From contig JALWWX010000232.1 in NCBI GenBank assembly GCA_027078675.1, positions 1 through 36,071 of the forward strand: a stretch of 36,071 nt of DNA. The letters run 5' to 3'. Numbering within the stretch: position 1 is the stretch's first letter; each line of letters starts with the position of its first letter. This document shows positions 2,080 through 35,234 of the stretch, one piece after another. The notes below the pieces were generated by a model that had not been told where the DNA came from, did no database searches, and saw only the letters and a list, made by a program, of their open reading frames with translations. Source of the stretch: Aquificales bacterium (lineage in GTDB: Bacteria > Aquificota > Aquificia > Aquificales > Aquificaceae). The translations under genes were made by a program, and so were the position numbers.

Positions 2080-2943
2080 ATGGGTGTAAGAAAGCTTAAA
2101 CCTGTAACAAATGGACAAAGGCATGCGGTTCTTTATGATTTTGCGGAGCTTACAAAGGATGAACCGGAAAAGTCTCTTCTTGTTCATTGGGTAAGGGCTA
2201 AGGGAAGATCAAGACAACAAGGTAAAATAACCGCAAGACACAGAGGAGGTGGCCATAAGAAAAGATACAGGCTTATAGATTTTAAAAGGGATAAGAGCCT
2301 TGTACCCGCTAAGGTTGTATCCATAGAGTATGATCCGTTTAGATCTGCCAGGATTGCCCTTTTACATTATGTTGATGGTGAAAAAAGATACATAATATGG
2401 CCTGAGGGTTTGAAGGTGGGCGATACGGTAGTTTCCATAAGCTATGAGGATGCGGAAGCTGGAAAGGAGCTTCCAGAGATAAAACCTGGTAATGCTTTGC
2501 CTCTCAAATATATACCGGAGGGTACATTTATACATAATATAGAACTTGTACCTGGCAGAGGCGGTAAAATAGTAAGGGCTGCAGGTACTTCAGCCCAAAT
2601 ACTCGGAAAATCAGATAAATATGCGCAGGTAAGACTGCCTTCTGGCGAAGTGAGGCTGATAAATTTGAAATGCATGGCGACCGTCGGCGCGGTTGGTCTT
2701 GCGGAACATGAGCTAATAAAGTACGGAAAGGCTGGAAGGTACAGATGGCTCGGATGGAGACCTTCGGTAAGGGGTACCGCTATGAATCCCGTTGATCATC
2801 CCCATGGAGGCGGTGAAGGTAAAACCAAGGGTAAGCATCCTGAATCACCGTGGGGTTGGAAAACTAAGGGATATAAAACCAAGAGGGGTAAGAGAGCTAA
2901 GAATAAATTTGTTCTTGTTACACGGAAAGGAGGAAAGGTCTAA
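2080..2943 (+). CDS. rplB: 50S ribosomal protein L2
   Basis: L2 supports subunit joining and the peptidyl-transferase centre. Visible hallmarks are [20 protein letters not shown] in the N-terminal part and [20 protein letters not shown] near the C-terminus, the latter carrying the conserved histidine near the catalytic centre. At 287 residues it is slightly longer than the usual 273-280. From memory, the N-terminal [20 protein letters not shown] strongly resembles L2 of Aquifex and is a main clue to the lineage. The stop TAA overlaps the rpsS start by one base (TAATG). Confidence 0.97.
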
Positions 2944-3404
2944 TGGGATTCAGAGGTGCTTGGAATAAAAGAAACAAGCTTATAGAGGATCTTGATAAAT
3001 TTTACAGGCTTTATAAAAAGACTCAAAGAATATACAAAAAGGTAAGGTATGCCCAGAAAAGGAAAGATCCGGAGATGCTTGAGAGGGCTATAAAGAAATA
3101 CAACGAGGTGTGGGAGGAGTACAGAAAGCTTGTTGACAAAAAGGCTTGGGTTCATCCCAAGTTGTGGAAGAAAATAAGGGAGATGAACGAACAGGGCGAA
3201 AGGAAGGTTATTAAAACATACAGCAGATCAACAACTATTATACCCGAGTTTGTTGGACACACCATAGCTGTACACAACGGTAAAACCTTTATTCCCGTTT
3301 ATATTACTCAGGACATGGTAGGGCATAAGCTTGGTGAGTTTGCGCCCACCAGAACCTTCAGAGGACATCCTGAAAAGACTGCGAAGGCGGTTAAGAAGAA
3401 ATGA
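2943..3404 (+). CDS. rpsS: 30S ribosomal protein S19 with long N-terminal extension
   Basis: S19 is a 30S head protein next to S13. The C-terminal 85 residues are standard S19: [20 protein letters not shown], then [20 protein letters not shown] and [14 protein letters not shown]. The total of 153 residues is far above the usual 90-95. About 60 extra, strongly charged and probably helical residues precede or interrupt the normal start (for example [19 protein letters not shown]). The frame is continuous and the start abuts rplB, so this is not a frameshift. I believe Aquifex S19 is also long, which would make it a lineage trait, but I could not check. It overlaps rpsC's neighbour rplV only if the upstream ATG at 3401 is used. 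Confidence 0.95.
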
Positions 3405-3415
3405 GGGGTGATGAG

Positions 3416-3757
3416 ATGGAGGCAAAGGCTATATTGAGATATGCAAGAATATCTCCTTTGAAAGCAAGGCAGGTTTTGAGGCAGATACAAGGAAAGGAGG
3501 CTGGAGAAGCTCTCTATTTACTCAAGGTTTTACCTAAGAAAGCTGCAAGAATAATAGAAAAGGTTTTAAGAAGCGCAATAGCAAATGCGGAGCAGAAGGG
3601 TATGGATCTTGATAATCTTTATATTAAAAAAGCGGTAGCTGATAACGGTCCCATTTACAAAAAATGGATGCCAAGGGCGTACGGCAGGGCTACAATGCTG
3701 AGAAAAAGAACATCTCATATTACAATAATACTTGAGGAAAGGAAAAAGGAGGAGTAG
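3416..3757 (+). CDS. rplV: 50S ribosomal protein L22
   Basis: L22 forms part of the exit tunnel wall. Motifs seen are ARISPLKARQVLRQIQGKEA near the start, then VLRSAIANAEQKG and MPRAYGRATMLRKRTSHITI in the C-terminal hairpin. I chose ATG 3416 (MEAKAIL) rather than 3401, because GAGGGGTG at 3403-3410 sits five bases before 3416, and L22 proteins usually start a few residues before the RxSPxKxR motif. The resulting 113 residues match the family. The gene is followed without a gap by rpsC. Confidence 0.94.
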   Translation: MEAKAILRYARISPLKARQVLRQIQGKEAGEALYLLKVLPKKAARIIEKVLRSAIANAEQKGMDLDNLYIKKAVADNGPIYKKWMPRAYGRATMLRKRTSHITIILEERKKEE

Positions 3758-5912: not shown

Positions 5913-6929
5913 ATGTCAAGGGCTGTTCTTGAAATAAGCGGGGAGAGGATAAGGGAAAATTGCAAAAATATTTGTAAATATACGGGAAAGAAAATAATAG
6001 CGGTAGTAAAATCGGATGCCTACGGTATAGGTATAAGATATATAGCACCGCTCCTTGAACACGTGGATGAGGTTGAGTATTTTGCAGTGGCATCTCCTGA
6101 TGAAGGTGCAATTTTAAGAAGTCTCGGAGTAAGGAAAAAGATACTTGTGCTCGGAGGGGTCCTAAGGGAAGAGATTGACACACTTTTAGAAAATCGTCTC
6201 ATTCCGGTTGTATCAGATATGAATCATTACAGGCTTGTAAAGGATCTTAAAATACCTTTCCATGTTAAATTTGATACGGGTATGGGAAGGCTGGGTTTTA
6301 CCGATCCCGTAAAATTGGAAGGTAGGGTTGAGGGTATAATGAGCCACTTTTCCTCTCCAGCGGATAAGGATTTTAGTATGGCTCAAATTGAAGCCTTCAG
6401 GAGAATTGTGGAAAAGTATAAGGACATAAGTGTTATACATATGGAGAGCTCCGCAGGGCTTATTTATAATCTTGACTTTACCACCCATGTTAGAATAGGT
6501 TTGGCTATATACGGTGAAAAGCCGATAAGAGATTATCCGGTTAGCATAAAACCGTCCCTTACCCTGAAGGCAAGGGTTATTTCCGTAAAAGAACTTCCGG
6601 GGGGTTATCCAATTTCCTACGGTAGAACCTACATAACACGCGGTCGCACTAAGATAGGAATTGTAGCCTTTGGATACGCGGACGGATTGATGAAAAGCTT
6701 GTCAAACAAGTTGAAGCTTATGGTTGGATCTCAAAATGTTCCGGTAATAGGCAATATAACAATGGATATGACCATAGTTGATATAACGGGTACGGATGTT
6801 AGAGAGGGGGATTGGATTTATATAGTTAATGAACATCAAACCTTTTCCCATATCTCAAAGCTTGCTGGGACAATTCCTTATGAAATTATGTGTAATCTCT
6901 CTTCACGGGTTGAAAGAAAAATCGTATAG
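5913..6929 (+). CDS. alr: Alanine racemase
   Basis: This PLP enzyme interconverts L- and D-alanine for peptidoglycan. The PLP-binding lysine is Lys33 in IAVVKSDAYGIGI (usual form VVKANAYGHG). The first-barrel motifs FDTGMGRLGF and HMESSAG are present. The second domain contains ISYGRTYI, GIVAFGYADGL and GNITMDMTIVDIT. At 338 residues it is a little short but complete. It begins five bases after the RlpA-like gene. No Shine-Dalgarno is seen; TATAAA at 5899-5904 lies eight bases before the ATG, so a leaderless start is possible. The 3' end overlaps the convergent pabB gene by 27 bases. Confidence 0.93.
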   Translation: MSRAVLEISGERIRENCKNICKYTGKKIIAVVKSDAYGIGIRYIAPLLEHVDEVEYFAVASPDEGAILRSLGVRKKILVLGGVLREEIDTLLENRLIPVVSDMNHYRLVKDLKIPFHVKFDTGMGRLGFTDPVKLEGRVEGIMSHFSSPADKDFSMAQIEAFRRIVEKYKDISVIHMESSAGLIYNLDFTTHVRIGLAIYGEKPIRDYPVSIKPSLTLKARVISVKELPGGYPISYGRTYITRGRTKIGIVAFGYADGLMKSLSNKLKLMVGSQNVPVIGNITMDMTIVDITGTDVREGDWIYIVNEHQTFSHISKLAGTIPYEIMCNLSSRVERKIV

Positions 6930-7952
6930 GGCTTTTGTTTTTAGTAAAAGTTCTTTGAACTCGGATTCTGGATCAGAATCCCATACTATACCGCAACCCG
7001 CATAGTAGTGAAATACTTTTTCTTTTCCAACTCCTGTTCTTATTAAAACACTCAAAGTAAAGTTACCGTTGGGATAAAGAATACCTCCGCATCCGCAGTA
7101 ATAACCGCGAGGATGATCCTCAAATTTATCTATAAGCTCAACCGCTTTTTTCTTGGGCGCACCAGTTACGGATGCGGGAGGAAAGGTGTTTTTAATTATT
7201 TCATTAAAATCTTTTTCCGTGTAAGCTTCAACTGTTGAGAACATCTGATACAATGTACGATACCTTTTTATCTTAAAAAGTTCAGTTACCTTTACACTTC
7301 CAGGTATGGCAATTCTTCCCAAGTCGTTGCGTACCATATCAGTTATCATGAGGTTTTCCGCCTTGTCCTTTAAACTCTTTTGTAAGAAGTATCTGCTGTT
7401 TGCTGTTCCTTTAATAGGGGAGGATCTTATATGTTTTCCTATTTTTTCAATAAACAATTCCATTGAACCAGAAACTATAAAAAATTCTCCCAGATCAAGA
7501 AAAAAACCAAAGGGAACGGGTTGCCTTTTAAAAAGAAGGGAAAATATTCCTTCTTCTTCACCATGGAAGCTAAAATCTATCCTCGTTGTAAGATTAATCT
7601 GATATATAGTTCCTTTTTCTATCTCTTTCTTTATTTTCTCAACCTTTTTTATGTAATCTTCTTTACTGTCCATTATAGAGGCGAATTCAATAGTTGTATT
7701 GCTATCAGATAATTCATAAGGTTTTATATCTTCTATCTCAACCGTTATAATTGAGGGATATATTTCCTTTTTAACGGGTACATGTAGTGTATTGCGTGTT
7801 TCTTGGTACGAAATTATAAGAAAAACAGGTTTTTTATCCGCTTTTATACCTTCAATGTCCTGGAGGAATGTTATTTTACCTGTACTGCATATAAATATAC
7901 CCTTTTTGTTGAACCATCCTCCTGATAGGAGTAGCTTTGAGGGTTTTTTCAT
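6903..7952 (-). CDS. pabB: Aminodeoxychorismate synthase component I (PabB)
   Basis: PabB aminates chorismate to 4-amino-4-deoxychorismate, the first committed step to p-aminobenzoate and folate. The chorismate-binding domain is clear: GTIYQINLT (residues 114-122), SPIKGT with the family's active-site lysine (Lys181), MVRNDLGRIAIPGSV, then FPPASVTGAPKKKAVELI and YAGCGIVWDSDPESEF. PIKGT instead of PITGT separates PabB from anthranilate synthase TrpE. The N-terminal part is shorter than in E. coli PabB (349 versus about 450 residues). No PabA or PabC is adjacent. The 5' end lies 21 bases from the divergent glycosyltransferase, with an apparently leaderless promoter; its 3' end overlaps alr. Confidence 0.88.
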   Translation of the reverse strand: MKKPSKLLLSGGWFNKKGIFICSTGKITFLQDIEGIKADKKPVFLIISYQETRNTLHVPVKKEIYPSIITVEIEDIKPYELSDSNTTIEFASIMDSKEDYIKKVEKIKKEIEKGTIYQINLTTRIDFSFHGEEEGIFSLLFKRQPVPFGFFLDLGEFFIVSGSMELFIEKIGKHIRSSPIKGTANSRYFLQKSLKDKAENLMITDMVRNDLGRIAIPGSVKVTELFKIKRYRTLYQMFSTVEAYTEKDFNEIIKNTFPPASVTGAPKKKAVELIDKFEDHPRGYYCGCGGILYPNGNFTLSVLIRTGVGKEKVFHYYAGCGIVWDSDPESEFKELLLKTKALYDFSFNP

Positions 7953-7965
7953 AAAAAGTTATAAT
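7937..7965 (+). promoter_or_regulatory. Candidate sigma-70 promoter, leaderless, for the glycosyltransferase
   Basis: TTGAGG (7937-7942) and a perfect TATAAT (7960-7965) are separated by exactly 17 bases. Only eight bases lie between the -10 box and the ATG at 7974, so transcription would start at or next to the start codon. No Shine-Dalgarno is present, which agrees with a leaderless mRNA. The -35 box lies inside the pabB coding region. Confidence 0.55.
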
Positions 7966-7989
7966 AGAACAACATGTTATCCGTTTCTA
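7961..7989 (-). promoter_or_regulatory. Candidate leaderless promoter for pabB
   Basis: On the minus strand TATTAT (7966-7961) lies eight bases before the pabB ATG, mirroring the plus-strand promoter and sharing five bases with its -10 box. A weaker -35 match, TAGAAA (7989-7984), sits 17 bases upstream. There is no Shine-Dalgarno. Less certain than the plus-strand promoter because of the poor -35 box. Confidence 0.4.
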
Positions 7990-8729
7990 TTGTAGCAAAG
8001 AATGAGGAGAGAACCATAGGCAGATGTATTGAGAGTGTTAAATCTATTGCGGATGAGATTGTCGTAGTTGACTCTGGCTCGGAGGATAGGACTGTTGAAA
8101 TAGCAAAAAGCTTAGGAGCTAAGGTAATATTCAGAGAGTGGACCGATTATGTAGATCAGGTTAATTATGCCATGGGATTGTGTTCGGGTGATTGGGTGCT
8201 TGTTCTTGATGCGGATGAGATAGTTTCTGATGAACTTTCAAAATCTATAAAAAAAGCTATACAAAATCCTGAATATACATGTTACAAGGTTAAAAGGAAG
8301 CTTTACTATTTAGGCAAGTTTTTAAGTTTTACAGAGGAAAGGATAAGACTTTTCAAAAAGGGTAAGGGAGTGTATGAAGGATTTGTCCACGAAAAGGTTA
8401 GATGTTTTGGGAATATAGGTATACTTGATGGATATCTTTATCACTATTCCTATGAAAGTATTTCAAGTCATATAAAAAAAGTGATGAAATATGCAGAGAG
8501 ATTAGCTGATGAAAATTGCAGAAGAGGATCAAAGTTTAGCTTTTTTAAGCTTGTTTTTAATCCTTTCTGGACCTTTATTAAATACTATGTTATAAAAGGC
8601 TGTTATAAAGATGGTCCTGCAGGTTTTATATTTTCTTCTGTAATGTGTTTTTACACATTTATGAAGTATGCTTTTCTTTTGGAAAAACAGTTGCTCCGTG
8701 AATTAGGAAAGGATGCATGGAGAAAATGA
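7974..8729 (+). CDS. Glycosyltransferase family 2, lipopolysaccharide core type (WaaE/KdtX-like)
   Basis: The protein has the family 2 GT-A layout: MLSVSIVAKNEERTIGRCIE, EIVVVDSGSEDRT for nucleotide-sugar binding, and VLVLDADEI, with the metal-binding D-x-D at Asp79-Asp81. The later RIRLFKKGKGVYEGFVHEKV and the HYSYESISSHIKK segment resemble the WaaE/KdtX group, which adds a hexose to the inner core of lipopolysaccharide. Length (251 residues) fits this group. Residues 200-240 are hydrophobic or amphipathic and may associate with the inner membrane. It overlaps the O-antigen ligase-like gene by 13 bases, supporting a role in surface polysaccharide. The exact sugar is unknown. Confidence 0.85.
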   Translation: MLSVSIVAKNEERTIGRCIESVKSIADEIVVVDSGSEDRTVEIAKSLGAKVIFREWTDYVDQVNYAMGLCSGDWVLVLDADEIVSDELSKSIKKAIQNPEYTCYKVKRKLYYLGKFLSFTEERIRLFKKGKGVYEGFVHEKVRCFGNIGILDGYLYHYSYESISSHIKKVMKYAERLADENCRRGSKFSFFKLVFNPFWTFIKYYVIKGCYKDGPAGFIFSSVMCFYTFMKYAFLLEKQLLRELGKDAWRK

Positions 8730-9919: not shown

Positions 9920-11674
9920 TCAAGGATACTTTGTTGACCTTTCGGAAACAAAAGAAAGGCGGTGCCTGATCAATTTACCTATATCGGATCTCGTAACTAT
10001 TCCCACTATTATTCTTTTGTCCCCCTCGGTTACGACTATAGGAATCCTTCCTATTCCCCTGTTTATCATTATATTGAGTACATCTGATAGCTTTGTATCA
10101 GGGTGTACAAATATGGGATCTTTTGTCATTATATCTTGTATTTTTACTTTTCCCTTTTCTTCTTCCCTTATGCGTGATATGTCACTCTTTGTTACAATCC
10201 CTTGAAGATTTCCTTCCTTAGCGACGGGTATTCCCGATATAAGCTTATTTTTCATAACCTCTTCCGCTTCCTTTACGGTTGCTTCTGGGGGTAAGGTAAT
10301 GGGTTTGTTCATAACTTCCTTCGCCTTGTAATTTTCAAGTATGCTTATACCTATTTCTTCCCTCATAATTGGTGAATCTTCCCTTCTGTTTACCTGGCTC
10401 GGGAATATGCTTTTGTCTCCGCTTACTATATAGGCTATGGATACCGCTATAATTGAAGGAACCAACAAATTATAGCCGTGGGTCATTTCCGCCACAAGTA
10501 TCAGTGTTGAAAGGGGTGCTTTTGCTGCACCGCCGAAAAAGGCTGTCATACCTACTACTGTAAATGAAGCTATATTAAGATAATCTTCTCCGCTTATCAT
10601 GTTTACTATAAGGCTTGATATTGCCCCGAGGGTTCCTCCTATCATTATGGAGGGTCCGAATATTCCCCCTGATCCACCAGATCCGAGTATGAGGGATGCA
10701 CAAAACATTAAAAATAGAGGTGAAAGCATAATGGTTATAATTCCTATGAAATCTATGTGTCCGTCTATTATTATCTGAAGCCAGCCGTAGCCGTTACCTA
10801 TTACAAAGGGATTGATTATACCTATAGAGCCTGTTATAAATCCTGCAATTGCGGGTCTCAGAAAGGGAGGTATGTTTGATTTGGCAAAAGTGTTTTGGAT
10901 TTCCGTGAACATCTTTATGAAAAATCTTATGGAGAAACCGCATATAAAACCAAGAAGGGCATAATATATAAGATGATCCACGGATAAGGATGCTTTGCCG
11001 GAAGTTGGTATATTAAATAGGGGATCAAAGCCCATAAAAGAACCGAAAACTATATAGGAAGTGACAGAAGCTAAAAATCCTGGAACTAAAAGTTCAATAT
11101 CAAAGTCCTTTTTGTAAAAAACCTCCGCGCTTATTATTGCACCTGCGAGCGGTGCCCTGAAGATGGCTGCCACTCCCGCTCCCAAGCCTATAGCTACAAG
11201 TTTTCTCCTTTCCCTTTTGCTGAGCCTTAAAATGTCGGAAAGTAAAGAACCCATACCTGCCCCTATGAGGGCTATGGGTCCTTCCCTTCCTGAGGTACCC
11301 CCAGAGCCTATGAGTATGGCTGAGCTTATTAATTTAACAAACGGTGCCTTTGGATCAATTTTCGCATTGTTAAAATGATAAGCCTTTATGGCGTGATCCG
11401 TGCCAATACCTTCTGATTCCCTTGAAAGGAAGTAAACAATAATACCAGAGATAAGGCCTCCTGCCATGGTTATAAAAGGTAGAAAGTAAGGGTGTTCCAC
11501 AAAGGGTTTTGTCAAAATGTATGTACCTTCGCCAGCAGGTAAGGGATTTATGTAACCCGCAATATCCACAAGTATAAATTCTGTTATTATTTCAATGGAA
11601 TAGTTAAAAAGGACAGCATAAATCCCTATGATTATACCAAGGATTATAGGTGGTAGGAAATTTTTGTGGATCAC
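9920..11674 (-). CDS. ClC-family chloride channel/antiporter with two CBS domains
   Basis: A 584-residue membrane protein of the ClC family, which move chloride or fluoride, either as channels or in exchange for protons. Motifs: GIGTDHAIK where the usual GSGIPE lies, GTSGREGPIALIGAG with the gating glutamate Glu131, and GSGGSGGIFGPSIMIGG as the GxFxP selectivity segment. At the position of the E. coli proton glutamate (EEMR) the sequence reads AEVFY, so that residue appears to be Val185. The last 130 residues form two CBS domains (AKEVMNKPITLPPEATVKEA; IQDIMTKDPIFVHPDTKLSD), probably binding an adenine nucleotide. The start is GTG at 11674, overlapping the divergent apbE region. The gene stands alone. 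Confidence 0.88.
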   Translation of the reverse strand: MIHKNFLPPIILGIIIGIYAVLFNYSIEIITEFILVDIAGYINPLPAGEGTYILTKPFVEHPYFLPFITMAGGLISGIIVYFLSRESEGIGTDHAIKAYHFNNAKIDPKAPFVKLISSAILIGSGGTSGREGPIALIGAGMGSLLSDILRLSKRERRKLVAIGLGAGVAAIFRAPLAGAIISAEVFYKKDFDIELLVPGFLASVTSYIVFGSFMGFDPLFNIPTSGKASLSVDHLIYYALLGFICGFSIRFFIKMFTEIQNTFAKSNIPPFLRPAIAGFITGSIGIINPFVIGNGYGWLQIIIDGHIDFIGIITIMLSPLFLMFCASLILGSGGSGGIFGPSIMIGGTLGAISSLIVNMISGEDYLNIASFTVVGMTAFFGGAAKAPLSTLILVAEMTHGYNLLVPSIIAVSIAYIVSGDKSIFPSQVNRREDSPIMREEIGISILENYKAKEVMNKPITLPPEATVKEAEEVMKNKLISGIPVAKEGNLQGIVTKSDISRIREEEKGKVKIQDIMTKDPIFVHPDTKLSDVLNIMINRGIGRIPIVVTEGDKRIIVGIVTRSDIGKLIRHRLSFVSERSTKYP

Positions 11675-11689
11675 TTTATATATTATTAT

Positions 11690-12571
11690 ATGATAAGGAT
11701 TTTACCTTTTTTGTTAGTCATTGTATTTCAAAGTTACGGATTTTCCGTTGAAAAGTTTTTCTATCTTATGGGAACATATAGCACAATGGATCTTGATAAT
11801 CCTGATGATATAAGGAGGGCTTATAAGTATTTAAGGAAACTGGAAAATAAAATGAGCACATACCTGGCGGAGTCTGAGGTTTCCCTTATAAACAGATATG
11901 CAGGTATTAAACCCGTAAAGGTATCCGGAGAAATTGTGGAAGTTATTATGGAAGCATTAAAAATATCAGAAAAGACCTATGGATATTTTGACATAACAGT
12001 CGGAGCTTATACTATAAACCACGTGCGTAAAAGGTTATTGAAAAAGGAGGAAGCTTTAAGGTTGATAAACTACAAAGATGTTGTGGTTAACGGAGACAAG
12101 GTGTTTTTAAGGAAAAAAGGTATGGCTATTGATCTCGGCGGTATAGGGAAAGGGTATGCCTTAGAAAAGGTCCATGACTATCTGAATGTTGAAAGGGGAT
12201 TTATAAGCATAGGGGGTGATATGAAGATATGGGGTATGAGGAAGTCAATAGCTATATTGGATCCTTTAGAGGAAAGTATCATCGCATTTTTTGTCAATAG
12301 GGGAGACCTGTGTATATCCACATCAGGAAATTATCATCAGGATCATATAAGAACACAAAACAGAAACATTATACAGGTTACCGTCTTACACAGAAATTGT
12401 ACTTACGCTGATGCCTACGCTACCGCTTTATTTGCTATGCCTGAGGGGGAGATTAAAAGGTTTTTAAATGAAAATGAAGATGTTGGTGTATTTATTTTGT
12501 ACAAGAATAGGGAGGTTTATGTTAATTCCGCATTTTTGTCCTACTGTGAAAAATTTAAAATAGTTGAATAA
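11690..12571 (+). CDS. apbE: FAD:protein FMN transferase, exported
   Basis: ApbE transfers FMN from FAD to a threonine or serine of target proteins outside the cytoplasm, using magnesium. Family motifs: LMGTYSTMDL, YFDITVGAYT, AIDLGGIGKGYALEKV, FISIGGDMKIWG, LCISTSGNYH, and CTYADAYATALFAM with the C-terminal metal/flavin-site aspartate. The ORF track starts at GTG 11666; I prefer ATG 11690, which opens directly into a signal sequence (MIRILPFLLVIVFQSYGF). There is no clear Shine-Dalgarno at either start. The protein is 293 residues and may be a lipoprotein-free periplasmic enzyme. The next gene encodes an FMN-binding protein with a flavinylation motif, its likely substrate. It is divergent from the ClC gene with overlapping 5' regions. 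Confidence 0.9.
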   Translation: MIRILPFLLVIVFQSYGFSVEKFFYLMGTYSTMDLDNPDDIRRAYKYLRKLENKMSTYLAESEVSLINRYAGIKPVKVSGEIVEVIMEALKISEKTYGYFDITVGAYTINHVRKRLLKKEEALRLINYKDVVVNGDKVFLRKKGMAIDLGGIGKGYALEKVHDYLNVERGFISIGGDMKIWGMRKSIAILDPLEESIIAFFVNRGDLCISTSGNYHQDHIRTQNRNIIQVTVLHRNCTYADAYATALFAMPEGEIKRFLNENEDVGVFILYKNREVYVNSAFLSYCEKFKIVE

Positions 12572-12637
12572 ATATATGACTTTTGTCATTGTTGAACTGT
12601 GTTTTTGAGATGATAATGAAATTAAATTTCAATTTCA

Positions 12638-13165
12638 ATGGCTGTGAAGGTAATTATTATGGTTATGGCTTCTTTAACCTTTGCTTATTCAAAGGTTGAT
12701 GTCACTAAGTATATAAGATTTTATTATCCGGATTCTGTAATAGAGATTAGAAATATAATCCTCAGCAAGGAACAGGTTAAAAGAGCAAGTAAGTTGGCAA
12801 AGGTAAAGATAAGATCAAGGCTTGTATCCTTTTACCTCATTAAGGATAAATCTGGTAACATAGTTGCATACGCTTATATAGATACTCACCGTGTCAGGAC
12901 AAAACCGGAAACAGTTCTTTACATAATTAGCAGAAATGGAGAGCTTGAAGTAGCAGAAGTTATAGCCTTTCTTGAGCCTCCCGAATATAAAGCTGATGAA
13001 AGATGGTTGAGCATATTTAAAGGAAAATCCCTGCATAAAGACAAATTGGCATTAAGGAGGGATATCCCTAATATAACTGGTGCTACCCTTACTGCAAGAG
13101 CAATTACTAAAAGTGTAAGAAAAGTGCTTGCGTTGTGGCAGGTTGTGTTTGGGGATAAGAAATGA
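12638..13165 (+). CDS. FMN-binding domain protein, exported, with flavinylation motif
   Basis: A 175-residue protein with a short signal-like N-terminus (KVIIMVMASLTFAYS) and a C-terminal FMN-binding domain like that of NqrC/RnfG. The segment DIPNITGATLTARAITKSV contains the D-x-x-x-x-T-G-A-T pattern; Thr150 is the likely residue to carry FMN through a phosphodiester bond. A preceding EVIAFLEPPEYKADERW is also typical of these domains. The protein probably acts as a periplasmic one- or two-electron carrier, modified by the ApbE encoded just upstream. It lacks NqrC's N-terminal membrane anchor. Its stop overlaps the membrane-protein gene by four bases. A 13-base palindrome (GAAATTAAATTTC) lies before its start, and no Shine-Dalgarno is seen. 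Confidence 0.85.
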   Translation: MAVKVIIMVMASLTFAYSKVDVTKYIRFYYPDSVIEIRNIILSKEQVKRASKLAKVKIRSRLVSFYLIKDKSGNIVAYAYIDTHRVRTKPETVLYIISRNGELEVAEVIAFLEPPEYKADERWLSIFKGKSLHKDKLALRRDIPNITGATLTARAITKSVRKVLALWQVVFGDKK

Positions 13166-14121
13166 GAATTTTTGTACAGAATGGCTCAAGAACCCAATAT
13201 ATGAAACATTTGATGATACTTATAGTTTTATTTTCTGGTTTGTTTTGGGGAGTTGATATTATAAACGCTTTTATGATTTACGGATACTCTTACGAAGATG
13301 TATATCTTTATTTCTACTCCGATTTTGAATATCCTGAAATTGCCCCCTTTAATGCCTTAATAGAAAATGTTCATATAAATCTTTACACGTCACTTTTATT
13401 TAATGTTTTTTTCTTACCCTTATTTTTAAAGCTCTATCCTAATAAAAAGTTTGCTTTTATTATATCTCTTATTATTTTTGCTTTATCTCTTTTATATTCC
13501 GTTTCTGATATAGCGGTATATCTGTGGGGTGTTATCTTTATATATATTAAGTTAATATCTTTTCTGAGCTATAAGGTTTTATCTCTGGTGGCATTGGCCA
13601 TTACATTTATATTAATCGTTTATAAACAAGTGGGAAGGGTTTATGTCGGTGGTGTTAACTTTATTGTTCTAATTTTTTCTTTTTCCTCTCTCTTTTTCTT
13701 ACTTATAAATTTGATTATGTTTTACACTAAACTGGGTTTTAATCCGGAGAATATTTATTACTATTACAATGGAAATGAAGAGCTATTTATAAAGGGTAAG
13801 AGTTTTGAAAGTATAATATCTGTTCTTGCATTACATATAGTGAGCGGAGGTGTGTTTGTTTTTGTCTTAAGCCATTTCTATATATTCACTGAATTTATTT
13901 ACAAGGGTATTGCCATCTATCTATCGTTTGTTTCAGCGATTATAGAATTTTTAAGCGGACTTTTTATAAAAATGGGGCTTTTTATTTTTACATACATTAA
14001 GCTAATTTCCTTCTTTATGATGGAATTCCTGCTTGCATTTATTACACTTTATGTTATAAAAGATATATTAAAAGGCAAATTGCAATGGACATCCGAAAAA
14101 AGTTCTCAGGAGCGATCATAG
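13162..14121 (+). CDS. Polytopic membrane protein made of two ~150-residue repeats, likely redox partner
   Basis: I do not recognise this family. The 319-residue protein has about eight hydrophobic segments. Its two halves resemble each other at an offset near 150 residues: INAFMIY (34-40) matches INLIMFY (182-188), NVHINLY with His71 matches LALHIVS with His225, and FIYIKLISF (126-134) matches FTYIKLISF (276-284). It is therefore an internal duplication, each half with four membrane segments and one conserved histidine. The start overlaps the FMN-binding gene by four bases, so it probably works with that protein, for example passing electrons between the membrane and the periplasmic flavin. 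Haem binding by the histidines is only inference. Its 3' end overlaps the next gene by 37 bases. Confidence 0.8.
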   Translation: MRIFVQNGSRTQYMKHLMILIVLFSGLFWGVDIINAFMIYGYSYEDVYLYFYSDFEYPEIAPFNALIENVHINLYTSLLFNVFFLPLFLKLYPNKKFAFIISLIIFALSLLYSVSDIAVYLWGVIFIYIKLISFLSYKVLSLVALAITFILIVYKQVGRVYVGGVNFIVLIFSFSSLFFLLINLIMFYTKLGFNPENIYYYYNGNEELFIKGKSFESIISVLALHIVSGGVFVFVLSHFYIFTEFIYKGIAIYLSFVSAIIEFLSGLFIKMGLFIFTYIKLISFFMMEFLLAFITLYVIKDILKGKLQWTSEKSSQERS

Positions 14122-15065
14122 GTTCATCTCTCGGGGACGCTATAGGTAAGTGTGTAGAGGATATTACTAAGTATGATGTATATGAATTTTATGGAGGTCC
14201 TCTGAGAGGTTTCGCAGAACCTCATCCATTAAGTCCTGCCCACGGTAGAAAGCCGGAGGAAACCTCAGATGAAACTACCGTGTTTCGCATCTTGTTGGAA
14301 AGCATAATTGAGAGGAAAGAGATAGACGTTCAGGACTTTATAAGAAGGTTAATAATATGGTATGAGGATGAGTCTTCTCACAGATATCCCGATCCTACTC
14401 TTCTTACTGCAATTGATCTACTTTCAAGGGGATCCAGTCCTGCCTTGTACGGTTTAACCTCCGCCTCTGTTGAAGGTATACTCAGAAGTGTTGCTGTGGG
14501 ATTGTATCACTATTACAATCCCCTCCTTGCAGCGGAGGGTAGTAGGGTTGTTTCTTTACTAACTCACAGGAGTGAATATATATCAGCTGGTTCTGCTGTT
14601 TTGGGGGCTTTTATTTCCATGCTTGTATCAGATTGCGAGATAGGTTCCGTGGACGAAAAAATAGATCTTATAAATAAGTTACAAAGAATTTCAGATAGTA
14701 GCAGGCTTAACAAAGCGTTGGATAAAGTTAAGGAGCTATTATTGAATGGAGCTGATGTTGATACCGCCATATTTGAGTTGGGAAACGGGAGTTTTGTACT
14801 TGAATCCCTACCTCTTTCTGTCTTTATATTTCTTTCGCACGCTGACGATCCAGAGGAGGCTTTTTGGCAAGGTGTCAATTCCTACGGCGAGTTCGGCGGT
14901 GATACCGACTCAATAGGATTTATGGTAGGAGCTTTCGTGGGGGCAAAATTCGGCGTGGATGTTTTCCCCAAGGAGCTTGTTGATAATCTTGAAAATTCAG
15001 GTTATTATATAAATATCGCAAATAAACTTACGGATATTATTAAAGAATCTGTTAAAGGAGGATAG
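14085..15065 (+). CDS. ADP-ribosylglycohydrolase family protein (DraG-like)
   Basis: This family removes ADP-ribose from proteins or small molecules using two metal ions. The start [20 protein letters not shown] is the standard first helix of the fold. The first metal motif is SDET (residues 61-64) where TDDT is usual, so one Asp is replaced by Glu. The second, [18 protein letters not shown] near residue 270, is intact. Length (326 residues) is normal. The natural start lies inside the membrane-protein gene, a 37-base overlap, which ties it to the flavin operon. The stop is five bases before hfq, and AAAGGAGGATAG within its end serves hfq. The substrate is unknown; no DraT-like transferase is in the window. 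Confidence 0.85.
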
Positions 15066-24422: not shown

Positions 24423-26504
24423 TTAAGGCTGAGGCGGACAGTTGGGATCACCTTGGTTACAGTTACAGCTTCCCGGACCCCAATTTTTTGAGAGGTAGTC
24501 AACTATAGCGGTAAAGGCAGGACCATTAACACCTCCGGGAACTGCACAGCCATTCATATCTATCATCCTTACTACGGTCTGTTGCCAATCTGCGTTCTTT
24601 TTTCCATCCAGAAGTACCATTTGTAAGTTGTGTTTGTTCTGCGTTATTACACAATCCGGACCGGTACCTTGATTCATTATGGTTATACCGTGACATACAC
24701 TACATGCCCTTTGGACGATTTCCCTTCCGAGCCATGTTGATACATCAGTTGTCTTTGTAGGATCAGCTATAGTAGCCAGATGGTTGATGATAGCGGATGC
24801 ATACTGTCCGTCAAGACCCCCAGGTATTTCACAACCTTCCGTATTAATCATCCTGTCAAGGGTTTGATACCAGGCTGTACTATCTTTACCTTGGAGAAGT
24901 TCAAAGGAATGCTGATAAGGATGTCTTGTTACAACAACAGAGGAGGGTGAAATAGATCCATCTTTATTAAGTCCACCTACTATAACACCGTGACATGTGT
25001 TACATGCCCACTGTGTAAGGAATGCTCCGTCCGTAGGCAGATTGGTGGAAGTTATTCCTGGACCGTAGTTGTTTGCAAGCCATGATGCAAAAGCGGTTTT
25101 TGCGACACCTCTTGGATCTGACGGATCAAGGGGCAAGGTACATCCTTCAACATCTATCATCCTGTCTATTGTTCTTTCCCACTCCTGTTGTGTTTTACCC
25201 TGAAGTAGAGCCATATCCCTACCTATGGGCATGGCGGTAACCCTATTCTGCTTTATTACATTGTCGGGATTAGTAGCATCTATTCCTACAGTTATACCGT
25301 GACACTGACCGCATGTTACCTTTATAGCTTCTTCCGTGCTGGCAAAGTCATTTATTGTGTACTCTTGTACTGTGGTAGAACCAGACCCAAAGTTTTGATC
25401 AAGGTATGTAGCCACTTTATCTATAGCACAATCTTCAAGACATTTCTGAAGATTTTGCGCGTTTGCGCATCCGCAAGAGTCCGCAGAGTCTGTTAAGTTA
25501 GGCAACTGAGCACCGTTTGCATAGATCATCCTTCTTATTGTTCTTTCCCAACCCTTTTTGGTTTTCTTACCTATAACGACAACATCCCACAAGGTTTGTG
25601 CATCCGTAACCCTCACTTTATTCTTACCTACAACGATACCGTGACATATGGTGCATGTGTTTTGAACTATTGTTTGTGCTGCGTTTGGAGATGACAGATC
25701 AACAGTAGGTTTGGTTCCACAGTTTGCACATCCTGGTCCGTAGTTTTGTGTCAAGTGACAGACTATCTTTTCAAAGACTGTGGCCGTACCAGGGTTATTA
25801 TTAACCCATGTACAATCAACAACACCTGTTATTATGCCTGCCTGACCCTCATCCCTTATTTTGAGACAATCCGCCTCTACGGGAGTAGGTGTCGCGTTCG
25901 TATCTACATGGTACTGCGCACCACCTGGAATTGCACAACCGTTCTTCTTTATCATCCTACATACTACAAATTCCCACTCCCACTGTTGTTTTCCGTCAAT
26001 AAGATTGATTGGACCGTTCAAGGGACTTGTGGTTGTAATTGCATTTCCGTTGATGCTTAGGTTATGACATGGACCACAAGCCAGCGTAAATAGCTGTGCG
26101 GGATCGGTAGGCAGGACTTTTGCGCTAACAGTATTCGGACCGAAGTTTTCCGAAAGCCACGTCACTATCATATTGTATGTTTCACCACCTATACCCCCAG
26201 GAACATTACAGCCGTTTTCTTGTATCATTCTTGCTACTGTCTTTTCCCAACCGTCCCTTGTCTTACCGTCCAACAGTTTTACATCCCAGCCTGTGGGACC
26301 GCTTGTTATCCGCCTTTCACCTATGACTATACCGTGACATGCCCCACAGTTTTCGGAAATATAGGAAGGCACATTAACTTGTGCCTTAGAAACATCAGCA
26401 GTCACTGGTATATAGTCTTTACTTCCACTACCCCCACAGCCTGCAAGTATAAATATTCCAAATAACAAAGAGGGTAACATAAGAATTTTTTTCTTTACAC
26501 CCAT
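24423..26504 (-). CDS. Hexaheme c-type cytochrome lipoprotein made of six repeats
   Basis: A 693-residue exported protein. The signal ends in a lipobox, FILAGC, so Cys23 should be lipidated. Six CxxCH haem sites are at residues 53, 143, 284, 398, 501 and 601 (CGACH, CGPCH, CTICH, CGQCH, CNTCH, CSVCH). Each starts a repeat of about 90-140 residues with the pattern LLDGKT, W or WE, then RMI, then NGCxxPGG, then a short helix and N-F/Y-GPG. The invariant RMI methionine could be the sixth haem ligand. The RMI and YL-N-YG parts recall the haem domain of quinohemoprotein amine dehydrogenase. Extra cysteines occur (GCANCG, SCGCAN, SCNCNQ). It has its own promoter and terminator. A role in electron transfer at the outer membrane is inferred. 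Confidence 0.9.
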   Translation of the reverse strand: MGVKKKILMLPSLLFGIFILAGCGGSGSKDYIPVTADVSKAQVNVPSYISENCGACHGIVIGERRITSGPTGWDVKLLDGKTRDGWEKTVARMIQENGCNVPGGIGGETYNMIVTWLSENFGPNTVSAKVLPTDPAQLFTLACGPCHNLSINGNAITTTSPLNGPINLIDGKQQWEWEFVVCRMIKKNGCAIPGGAQYHVDTNATPTPVEADCLKIRDEGQAGIITGVVDCTWVNNNPGTATVFEKIVCHLTQNYGPGCANCGTKPTVDLSSPNAAQTIVQNTCTICHGIVVGKNKVRVTDAQTLWDVVVIGKKTKKGWERTIRRMIYANGAQLPNLTDSADSCGCANAQNLQKCLEDCAIDKVATYLDQNFGSGSTTVQEYTINDFASTEEAIKVTCGQCHGITVGIDATNPDNVIKQNRVTAMPIGRDMALLQGKTQQEWERTIDRMIDVEGCTLPLDPSDPRGVAKTAFASWLANNYGPGITSTNLPTDGAFLTQWACNTCHGVIVGGLNKDGSISPSSVVVTRHPYQHSFELLQGKDSTAWYQTLDRMINTEGCEIPGGLDGQYASAIINHLATIADPTKTTDVSTWLGREIVQRACSVCHGITIMNQGTGPDCVITQNKHNLQMVLLDGKKNADWQQTVVRMIDMNGCAVPGGVNGPAFTAIVDYLSKNWGPGSCNCNQGDPNCPPQP

Positions 26505-28386: not shown

Positions 28387-28960
28387 TACCGTAATTTCCT
28401 CCTTTTTTCCTGTATGCTATTCTCAGTTCTCCGGTCTTCATATCAACAAAAGGTATAAAGAAGGCTCCGGATTCTTGAAGTTCCATTATTGCATCTTCCA
28501 CGCTCATAGGTTTTTCTATGCTAAGTTCTTCTTCTACGATGAGGGGTCTTTCTCTTTCCTCGGGCGGAAGGGGTTGGGGTGTATGCATCTCTTCCTTTAT
28601 TTTTGCACTTTTCCTTCTAAGTTCTAACCTCCTCTGTTTTAATTTTATAAGTTGCCTTTCAACTTCATCAAGAACTTTGTCAAGGGCGGTGAATACATCG
28701 GGGTCTTCTTCCCATGCATGTATAGCACCACCGCCAGCTGTCTTCAGATATATATCAAGATCAACCCTGTACATAGTAGGATGGCTTTCACCGGCAAAAT
28801 CCTTATGCTTTGACCTTACACTTGATAGGGTTACGATAGCTTCTATTTGATCCTCTCCCGCTTCTCTTAGATACCTGTTAAATCTGCTTAGTTTACCTTC
28901 AATAAAGCTTTTCATTGCTTCGGTAAATTCAATATCTTTTCCCCTGAATTCAATATTCAT
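28349..28960 (-). CDS. hpf: Ribosome hibernation promoting factor, long form
   Basis: Long HPF pairs two ribosomes into inactive 100S dimers in resting cells. The N-terminal S30AE domain (MNIEFRGKDIEFTEAMKSFI to LIKLKQRRLELRRK) is joined by a linker to the C-terminal dimerisation domain (PMSVEDAIMELQESGAFFIP; FVDMKTGELRIAYRKKGGNY). I chose ATG 28960 rather than 28975, since it forms an ATGA overlap with the upstream gene's stop and has GGAGG eight bases upstream. This gives 203 residues. The tail NTKCKAGSFL runs past the usual YGLI end and overlaps mqnA on the other strand. Confidence 0.92.
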   Translation of the reverse strand: MNIEFRGKDIEFTEAMKSFIEGKLSRFNRYLREAGEDQIEAIVTLSSVRSKHKDFAGESHPTMYRVDLDIYLKTAGGGAIHAWEEDPDVFTALDKVLDEVERQLIKLKQRRLELRRKSAKIKEEMHTPQPLPPEERERPLIVEEELSIEKPMSVEDAIMELQESGAFFIPFVDMKTGELRIAYRKKGGNYGIINTKCKAGSFL

Positions 28961-30456
28961 TCCCTTAACCTCCATATTCTGAATCCTGGTTTATTTAAAA
29001 TTCTACCCTTTCTTATACCGCTTTTGAAGGGTTGACTTTCTTCAAAGCCTTCTGATACAAATATTGTATCATCGCTGACTGTATTTGTTATTTCAACCCT
29101 TACTCCTTTGAAGAGGGAATCTTCTTTAATACCGAGCTTTTCTGCTGTTTTTTTATTAATGTACACTTTTTGTTCCCTTTCAAGTCCGTGAAGCCAAGGA
29201 TACCAGTGTCCCCATATTTCTACTGGGGAATCTCCTACTATTACATATATATCTCCATACCTTAAATCATAGGTTTCCTTCGTATCTATTTTTGAATCCC
29301 TGAGGTCATTTTTATAAATTGTAGGTTCCTCTTGTCCGCTTATATCAAATATGTAACTAATTGTATCTTCAACCGTGTATGGAAAATTTTGAAGTTTAAC
29401 GCTTTTAGTTTCATAAGCAAAGGGATTAAAGAGGGGGGTGGTTTCTCTTTCTTTGAAAAGGGGTAAGGGTATTATTACATTGCTGTTCATTGCTGTGAAA
29501 TCGGGAAGAAGGCTAAAGGAGATCCTTTCCTGATTTTCGGGAAGGCTATCAAATTCATAAAGGGTGTTATCTACGGAAATTATCAAGTCGTGACTTTCCA
29601 AGTTTATATCCTTAAGCTCTTTTATTTCCACATTTGTTATATTTCCTATGAAGGCGTATTCCGTTCCGTACGATGTTCTCAGATGTTTTATAAAGCTTAT
29701 TACAAAATACCTGAGTGGTGATTTGAGAAGAGTTTCGCTGACTATAATGAGGCTTTCTTTTGTAGTTTCAAGATAGGATTTTAATCTATTCCACGGTTCA
29801 TTCTTTCCTTCTAATATGTTTTCAAGTGTGTTTTTAAGTTGATAAGGGTTCATCAGTAAATTTATATTTGCTTTAGCGGACAGTGTGTTGTACCTTGAAG
29901 AGATATTAACAAGGTATGATCCCTTTTCCACCGCATCCATTATCCATCTTGTTGCCATAACTTCCGAGTTAACGGGATCCGTTTCCAGCGCTATTATAAG
30001 CTTCATATTTGACCATTCATAGGGAGGTACGGATGAAGGTTTAAAGGGCAAGAATACGCCCGTTGTATATATGTCTTTTGTAAGCTTTCTCAATACCTTA
30101 TAGTCTTCAATTGTTGAGAATTTACCCATGATAGCTGCGGGTTTCTTTATTGGCCTTTTTGATAAAAGTGCCTTCACTTCTTCTATATCACTTTTTATAA
30201 ATTCCCTTTCCTTTCTTATAAGAATGTCCTTTATCCTGTAAGGGAGTTTGTCCGTTTCACCTATGAGAGCTATTCCCTTATTGCACAGGCTTCCTACTGA
30301 GTTTTTATCGTAAGGGTGCCCGTATAAATCAACGATTTCTTCATCCTTCATATAAGCAATAAAACCACAATGGCAACCACATCCGAAACAATAACCACAA
30401 ACTTCCCTGTTAAATTTTTTTATGCTTAAGGGAACATCCGTGGGTTTCAGGTTCAC
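28957..30456 (-). CDS. Short molybdopterin-oxidoreductase-like protein with N-terminal [4Fe-4S] site
   Basis: The N-terminus has C-x2-C-x3-C (Cys23, Cys26, Cys30) and Cys58 in GSLCNKGIALIG, the [4Fe-4S] pattern of molybdopterin enzymes such as formate dehydrogenase; two more cysteines (20 and 28) lie within it. The following LPYRIKDILIRKEREFIKSD matches the usual dRLkyPlkR segment. The C-terminus (YINKKTAEKLGIKEDSLFKG) resembles the final cofactor-binding domain. At 499 residues it is much shorter than typical members (650-1000), with the middle domains reduced. It may be a small or inactive relative, or a partner like FwdB/NuoG; I cannot assign a substrate. It overlaps fabI and hpf by four bases each (ATGA). 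Confidence 0.72.
   Translation of the reverse strand: MNLKPTDVPLSIKKFNREVCGYCFGCGCHCGFIAYMKDEEIVDLYGHPYDKNSVGSLCNKGIALIGETDKLPYRIKDILIRKEREFIKSDIEEVKALLSKRPIKKPAAIMGKFSTIEDYKVLRKLTKDIYTTGVFLPFKPSSVPPYEWSNMKLIIALETDPVNSEVMATRWIMDAVEKGSYLVNISSRYNTLSAKANINLLMNPYQLKNTLENILEGKNEPWNRLKSYLETTKESLIIVSETLLKSPLRYFVISFIKHLRTSYGTEYAFIGNITNVEIKELKDINLESHDLIISVDNTLYEFDSLPENQERISFSLLPDFTAMNSNVIIPLPLFKERETTPLFNPFAYETKSVKLQNFPYTVEDTISYIFDISGQEEPTIYKNDLRDSKIDTKETYDLRYGDIYVIVGDSPVEIWGHWYPWLHGLEREQKVYINKKTAEKLGIKEDSLFKGVRVEITNTVSDDTIFVSEGFEESQPFKSGIRKGRILNKPGFRIWRLRE

Positions 30457-35141: not shown

Positions 35142-35142
<1 letters not shown>
32836..35142 (+). CDS. Secreted parallel beta-helix protein with Ig-like domain and C-terminal anchor
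   Basis: A 768-residue surface protein. Signal peptide MLVLMLLFPVLLWA precedes ANLYVTPNPSTGADC. Residues about 20-480 form a right-handed parallel beta-helix with many NNxI/NNTI turns (VTNNTIYNNTALMGGGVFIY; LYNNIIYGNKADTGAEVLL), ending in the common AIDAGYNDAP-RGGPRIVG-DIGAVEY cap. Residues about 490-600 are an ASPM/SPD-2/Hydin-type Ig domain (IDFGDVLKYESKFKDINIAN). The end, KGCYFSGYFPLLILFMALIH followed by RIRYNLFR, is Cys motif, membrane helix and basic cluster, like C-terminal sorting signals. Function is unknown; adhesion or glycan binding is plausible. The TAG stop shares its G with the next tRNA. Confidence 0.85.

Positions 35143-35234
<92 letters not shown>

Follow-up and report, generated by a model that had tools for sequence, protein, structure and literature searches.

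Organisation of the locus

The window analysed here is a stretch of 36,071 nucleotides from contig JALWWX010000232.1 of an Aquificales bacterium (assembly GCA_027078675.1), the genome of which comprises 1.85 Mb in 254 contigs and is 99.98% complete. Between positions 11690 and 14121, three consecutive genes on the + strand encode a flavin transferase (ApbE), an FMN_bind-domain protein (FMNb) and a membrane protein (MP):

11690-12571, + strand: ApbE, predicted exported or membrane-anchored FAD:protein FMN transferase (Pfam ApbE, E 1.4e-45; catalytic motifs)
12638-13165, + strand: FMNb, putatively exported FMN_bind-domain protein, RnfG/NqrC-like (Pfam FMN_bind, E 2e-5)
13061-13087, + strand: predicted flavinylation site of FMNb, D142-I-P-N-I-T-G-A-T150 (DIPNITGAT; sequence and family comparison)
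13162-14121, + strand: MP, membrane protein of 319 residues with 8 predicted helices in two 4-helix pseudo-repeats (AlphaFold, hhalign)
13162-13641, + strand: N-terminal half of MP, about residues 1-160 (hhalign; gene structure of homologues)
13642-14118, + strand: C-terminal half of MP, about residues 161-319 (hhalign; gene structure of homologues)

The original prediction had described an ApbE, an FMN-binding protein and a membrane protein side by side, the last two overlapping by four bases, and both statements agree with the Pfam assignments (ApbE, FMN_bind) and with the positions of the open reading frames: the genes at 12638-13165 and 13162-14121 share four bases. An open reading frame for an ADP-ribosylglycohydrolase (14085-15065, + strand) overlaps the end of the MP gene and is followed by hfq; an ADP-ribosylglycohydrolase gene also comes after MP in a second species of the genus. 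Elsewhere in the window lie a protein of 693 residues with c-type cytochrome stretches and no full-length family (24423-26504, - strand), a protein of 499 residues whose sole match is to the Fe4S4 domain of molybdopterin oxidoreductases, matches to the catalytic-domain families being absent (28957-30456, - strand), and a tRNA gene (35142-35231, + strand), directly upstream of which a protein of 768 residues with NosD-type repeats is encoded.

ApbE and the flavinylation site of FMNb

ApbE belongs to its family both by Pfam domain and by FAD-binding and catalytic motifs, with DLGGIGKGYA, STSGNY..H and DAYATA retained in an alignment of 43 homologues. Its open reading frame opens at a GTG at 11666, 11690 being the ATG start taken in the first reading, and export is predicted from the hydrophobic N-terminus alone. 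FMNb scores 25.6 bits against Pfam FMN_bind (cut-off 22) and is thus a member of this domain family, the profile of its own family matches RnfG of solved Rnf complexes (PDB sequences, E 4e-8), and its N-terminus looks like a signal peptide. Genome searches returned one ApbE and one FMN_bind protein for the window genome, which makes FMNb the sole FMN_bind client of this ApbE.

The published ApbE motif reads D-x-x-[S/T]-G-A-[S/T] (PMC12052999), and FMNb does not display it in this canonical form: TGAT is present, Pro144 occupies the canonical Asp position and Asp142 lies two residues further upstream. This DIPN-type variant is common to most FMNb homologues; Methylococcus FMNb exhibits the canonical DAISGAT and two Myxococcota carry AGST. 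Since only minor effects have been reported upon changing the Asp of the motif to Ala (PMC12052999), flavinylation of Thr150 is still likely. The D-x4-TGAT motif with Thr150 as acceptor was hence read correctly as far as the threonine is concerned, the motif itself being unusual in having a proline where the aspartate is canonically found.

Sequence and fold of the membrane protein

AlphaFold yields a confident model of MP (pLDDT 89.5, pTM 0.83), in which eight long helices are accompanied by two short helices on the periplasmic side. Homology between the N- and C-terminal halves extends over their entire length (hhalign probability 99.5%, E 3e-22; E 1e-24 with a larger alignment), and the distribution of loop charges (positive-inside) assigns the N-terminus to the cytoplasmic side and the conserved long loops to the periplasm. 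By sequence, MP is highly hydrophobic, free of cysteine and without a classical cofactor motif.

No match to the window MP was found in Pfam, NCBIfam or the PDB sequences, and a profile of the half-protein against PDB chains gave nothing meaningful. Foldseek returned zero matches at E <= 0.001, both for the eight-helix model (searched against PDB and viral structures) and for a single-half model (searched against PDB); fold matches to GPCRs and to glutathione-transferase-type proteins were dismissed as generic helix bundles. Haem A synthase CtaA is an eight-helix protein composed of two four-helix halves, the same layout as in MP; its structure (6a2j) ranked fourth in the fold search, but with an E of 0.8 and a TM-score of 0.29 this is non-significant. 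The view that the membrane protein does not resemble the known partners is therefore upheld: neither HMM nor fold searches match it to a known redox subunit.

Invariant histidines and relatives bearing c-type haem

Upon alignment of 56 N-halves and 60 C-halves, only three columns were conserved at 100%, all of them histidines:

13372-13374, + strand: His71, in helix 2 of the N-half, within its periplasmic third (56/56 N-halves)
13834-13836, + strand: His225, in helix 2 of the C-half, the pseudo-symmetric counterpart of His71 (60/60 C-halves)
13873-13875, + strand: His238, same helix as His225, 13 residues after it, at the cytoplasmic end (60/60 C-halves)

Searches with the half-unit also found membrane proteins of ~240 residues that exhibit a CxxCH domain in a periplasmic loop followed by an HIH helix, the HIH being invariant in 38/38. 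These c-haem relatives align with MP over ~98 columns (hhalign E 6e-8), helices 2-4 including the conserved histidine being homologous, and they have no Pfam family of their own. FMNb, ApbE or porin genes were found near 0/39 of them. With FMNb encoded beside MP and CxxCH fused in the relatives, one branch thus relies on a flavoprotein with its own gene, the other on a c-haem within the membrane protein itself. His238 is missing from divergent Bacteroidota forms of MP and from the c-haem relatives, and across all subfamilies only the position of the H71/H225 type is kept. The loss of His238 in the divergent Bacteroidota makes a fixed two-haem path doubtful, and a second haem or quinone site in these forms is uncertain.

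Mainly because of the invariant histidines and the c-haem-bearing relative, we read MP as a b-type cytochrome, and the comparison suggests that it feeds electrons to FMNb. One could ask whether MP is instead a prokaryotic cytochrome b561 (Ni_hydr_CYTB) that has diverged strongly, which would make it a known kind of cytochrome in a new setting. The cytochrome b561 family has a histidine pair spaced 14 residues apart in one helix, to which the 13-residue spacing in MP is akin, and 2/23 MP members (both C-halves) gave sub-threshold matches to the C-terminal part of the PF01292 profile (E 6e-4 and 2e-3), in line with MP being a cytochrome of some kind. These matches are however partial and reach only 18.6-20 bits against a gathering threshold of 30.1, the window MP has none, the fold of MP matches no cytochrome at E <= 0.001, and both helix number and the 4+4 duplication differ, which renders this assignment quite improbable.

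Gene forms and distribution

MP was found in 70/136 Aquificota genomes, and all 66 FMNb-positive genomes fall within those 70. Across this phylum (the labels of its two family groups being inferred), MP is fused in Aquificaceae, and in Hydrogenothermaceae it is fused in part and mostly split into two overlapping genes of ~155 residues. The halves are likewise two genes in Sulfurimonas; Myxococcota, Methylococcus and most Bacteroidota possess a single half, and Kryptonium has the fused form. For the single-copy MP of Myxococcota and Methylococcus, the best match is the C-half.

Outside Aquificota, genomes matching MP numbered 30/298 in Campylobacterota, 53/237 in Myxococcota and 12/396 in Bacteroidota, counts that include c-haem relatives and weak matches and in which each genome sample bears the phylum label of its centre genome. 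In Pseudomonadota 51/399 genomes matched, and among those examined the FMNb type was present only in Methylococcus. The suggestion of an undescribed electron route in a thermophile thus holds in its first part for the literature searched: no description of the module was found in open-access papers on porins together with FMN-binding/ApbE, on Aquifex or Aquificota and on Sulfurimonas. Its second part needs widening, as the system is not specific to thermophiles but occurs in Aquificota, Campylobacterota, Myxococcota, Bacteroidota/Kryptonia and Methylococcus.

Conserved gene neighbourhood

In 108/113 distinct MP loci from at least five phyla, FMNb directly adjoins MP, many of these loci coming from related genomes and hence being non-independent. 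In three of the five exceptions FMNb is present, the ORF start being over-called in two of them and the FMNb match weak in the third; the remaining two are a broken FMNb and a contig end. Inspection of the genome neighbours of MP homologues, proposed as a check at the outset, thus revealed the expected recurrence beside FMN-binding genes; the reverse pattern, in which most homologues would lack FMN-binding or ApbE genes nearby, was not observed. The arrangement is not due to chance: it is found again in more than 100 loci and at least five phyla.

ApbE was not present in the stretch examined in 49/113 loci, many of these stretches being short, and the adjacency of MP and FMNb persists there. 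This bears on the possibility that MP is an FAD exporter supplying periplasmic ApbE, with FMNb being reduced by some other membrane protein. Periplasmic ApbE does require FAD, Listeria is known to possess membrane proteins dedicated to flavin trafficking (PMC9973259), and RibBA (riboflavin synthesis) adjoins ApbE in Sulfurimonas, being restricted to Campylobacterota among 26 loci for which wider surroundings were available. Such an exporter is nonetheless unlikely: MP keeps its FMNb neighbour even without a nearby ApbE, the histidines are the only residues conserved in every MP half examined, and the relatives of MP have a covalent c-type haem domain in place of the FMN partner.

Highly improbable is that MP is a cofactor-free anchor or docking platform for FMNb, with electrons arriving from another donor, either soluble or in the membrane. 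The hydrophobic, cysteine-free sequence and the linkage to FMNb in single, split and fused forms of MP would fit such a role, but a mere anchor would have no need for fully conserved histidines and lysines inside helices, nor for a duplicated 8-helix protein to be retained in several phyla.

A porin family was encountered near MP in 79/113 loci, short flanks included. In the 26 wider loci, drawn from four phyla besides Aquificota, FMNb was present in 26, MP in 26, porin in 25 and ApbE in 18, and the outer-membrane porin therefore constitutes the third constant gene of the module. No recurrent terminal enzyme was found near the module in these 26 loci; other large gene clusters in them looked like antisense or shadow ORFs. 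The porin family shows a weak match to Porin_O_P, an N-terminal coiled-coil-like stretch and, in 45 porins of the module family, a conserved Glu/His cluster (ELELEH, HEP). In several Aquificota a lipoprotein with CxxCH motifs sits between porin and FMNb. Homologues of both are encoded in the window genome:

Contig C162, about 2404-3522, - strand: porin homologue, 51% identity to a relative
Contig C254, segment 5500-19500, 6268-8013, + strand: CxxCH lipoprotein homologue of about 550 residues, 67% identity to the protein encoded between porin and FMNb in a relative

The porin had been missed in the original prediction because it lies on a separate contig in this genome. The lipoprotein on contig C254 is without a clear Pfam family. 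The module is conserved as porin-FMNb-MP-ApbE and is larger than the three genes noted at first.

Proposed mechanism

We consider it reasonably probable that ApbE, FMNb and MP belong to a porin-partnered electron-transfer module, of which they represent the portion in the inner membrane and the periplasm, and that electrons pass in it from haem b of MP to covalent FMN. In favour of this reading also count the RibBA gene beside ApbE in Sulfurimonas and the presence of porin and lipoprotein genes on other contigs of the window genome; Pro144 at the canonical Asp position, three histidines in place of the four in DUF4405 and the absence of a recurrent terminal enzyme speak against it. ApbE would attach FMN to Thr150 of exported FMNb, as suggested by the motif, its invariance and the presence of a single enzyme and a single client in the genome. 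MP, with both termini inside, would hold at least one haem b near the periplasmic face via His71 and His225 and would accept electrons from the quinol pool in the membrane; His238 at the cytoplasmic end may, more tentatively, mark either another haem or a site for quinone. From MP, electrons would then move to the covalent FMN of FMNb docked on the conserved periplasmic loops of MP, and FMNb in turn might reduce either a cytochrome in the periplasm (for instance the lipoprotein cytochrome found in many Aquificota) or a small oxidant or metal ion entering via the porin.

A metal such as iron would be a reasonable guess for the substrate, given the ELELEH and HEP residues of the porin. A more far-reaching version, in which MP, FMNb and porin make up a full trans-envelope route for electrons or metal redox chemistry, with haem b in the duplicated 4-helix membrane protein, covalent FMN in the periplasm, the porin coiled coil docking FMNb and the Glu/His cluster binding a metal or oxidant for reduction at the outer membrane, appears to us rather unlikely.

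Thousands of genomes encode exported flavinylation parts without a characterised electron-transfer system (PMC8238504), and for part of this gap, in Aquificota, Sulfurimonas-type bacteria, Myxococcota and others, the module offers a candidate membrane carrier together with a constant outer-membrane partner. If the proposed reading is true, MP would add a family of membrane cytochromes whose history of duplication is clear (single, paired, fused), along with a case of a flavin/c-haem swap inside one superfamily. The porin link moreover raises a specific question: what crosses the outer membrane to reach the flavin?

Comparison with known systems

Surveys of flavinylation systems list Nqr, Rnf, NapH-like, MsrQ-like, PepSY-like, DsbD, Nqr/Rnf-like and DUF4405 proteins as membrane partners (PMC8238504, PMC11334425), and a partner of the MP type is absent from the lists in both. 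The original prediction had stated that NqrB/D/E, RnfD, PepSY and ferric-reductase-like partners are not present, and for MP this is supported at the profile level: known-partner profiles matched neither the window MP (Pfam, NCBIfam) nor 22 homologues (Pfam).

The module shares with Nqr and Rnf (RnfG/NqrC with RnfD/NqrB and RnfA/E) an exported FMN_bind protein, flavinylated by ApbE (as predicted in the case of FMNb), beside inner-membrane subunits. It differs in that MP has no RnfD/NqrB or RnfA/E match (23 members, Pfam), that the window genome contains no separate NqrC/RnfG and that a porin recurs in place of further subunits. The DUF4405, MsrQ-like and PepSY-like cytochromes likewise comprise a histidine-bearing inner-membrane protein near apbE and a proposed electron route to a flavinylated protein. 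DUF4405 proteins have six helices and four central histidines, whereas the eight helices of MP form two repeats with three invariant histidines and MP gives no profile match, and MsrQ, PepSY and ferric-reductase-like profiles match 0/23 MP members. NapH-like, DsbD and Nqr/Rnf-like proteins are also membrane partners of flavinylated proteins, to whose families MP shows no match; being free of cysteine, MP lacks an iron-sulphur or thiol-exchange site, unlike these partners.

The mutual replacement of flavin and cytochrome is an established theme in other flavinylation systems (PMC8238504), and the split between MP and its c-haem relatives resembles the swap described there. In its way of working the module probably resembles the flavinylation-associated systems with a membrane cytochrome, but by the tests applied it lies outside the families described so far.
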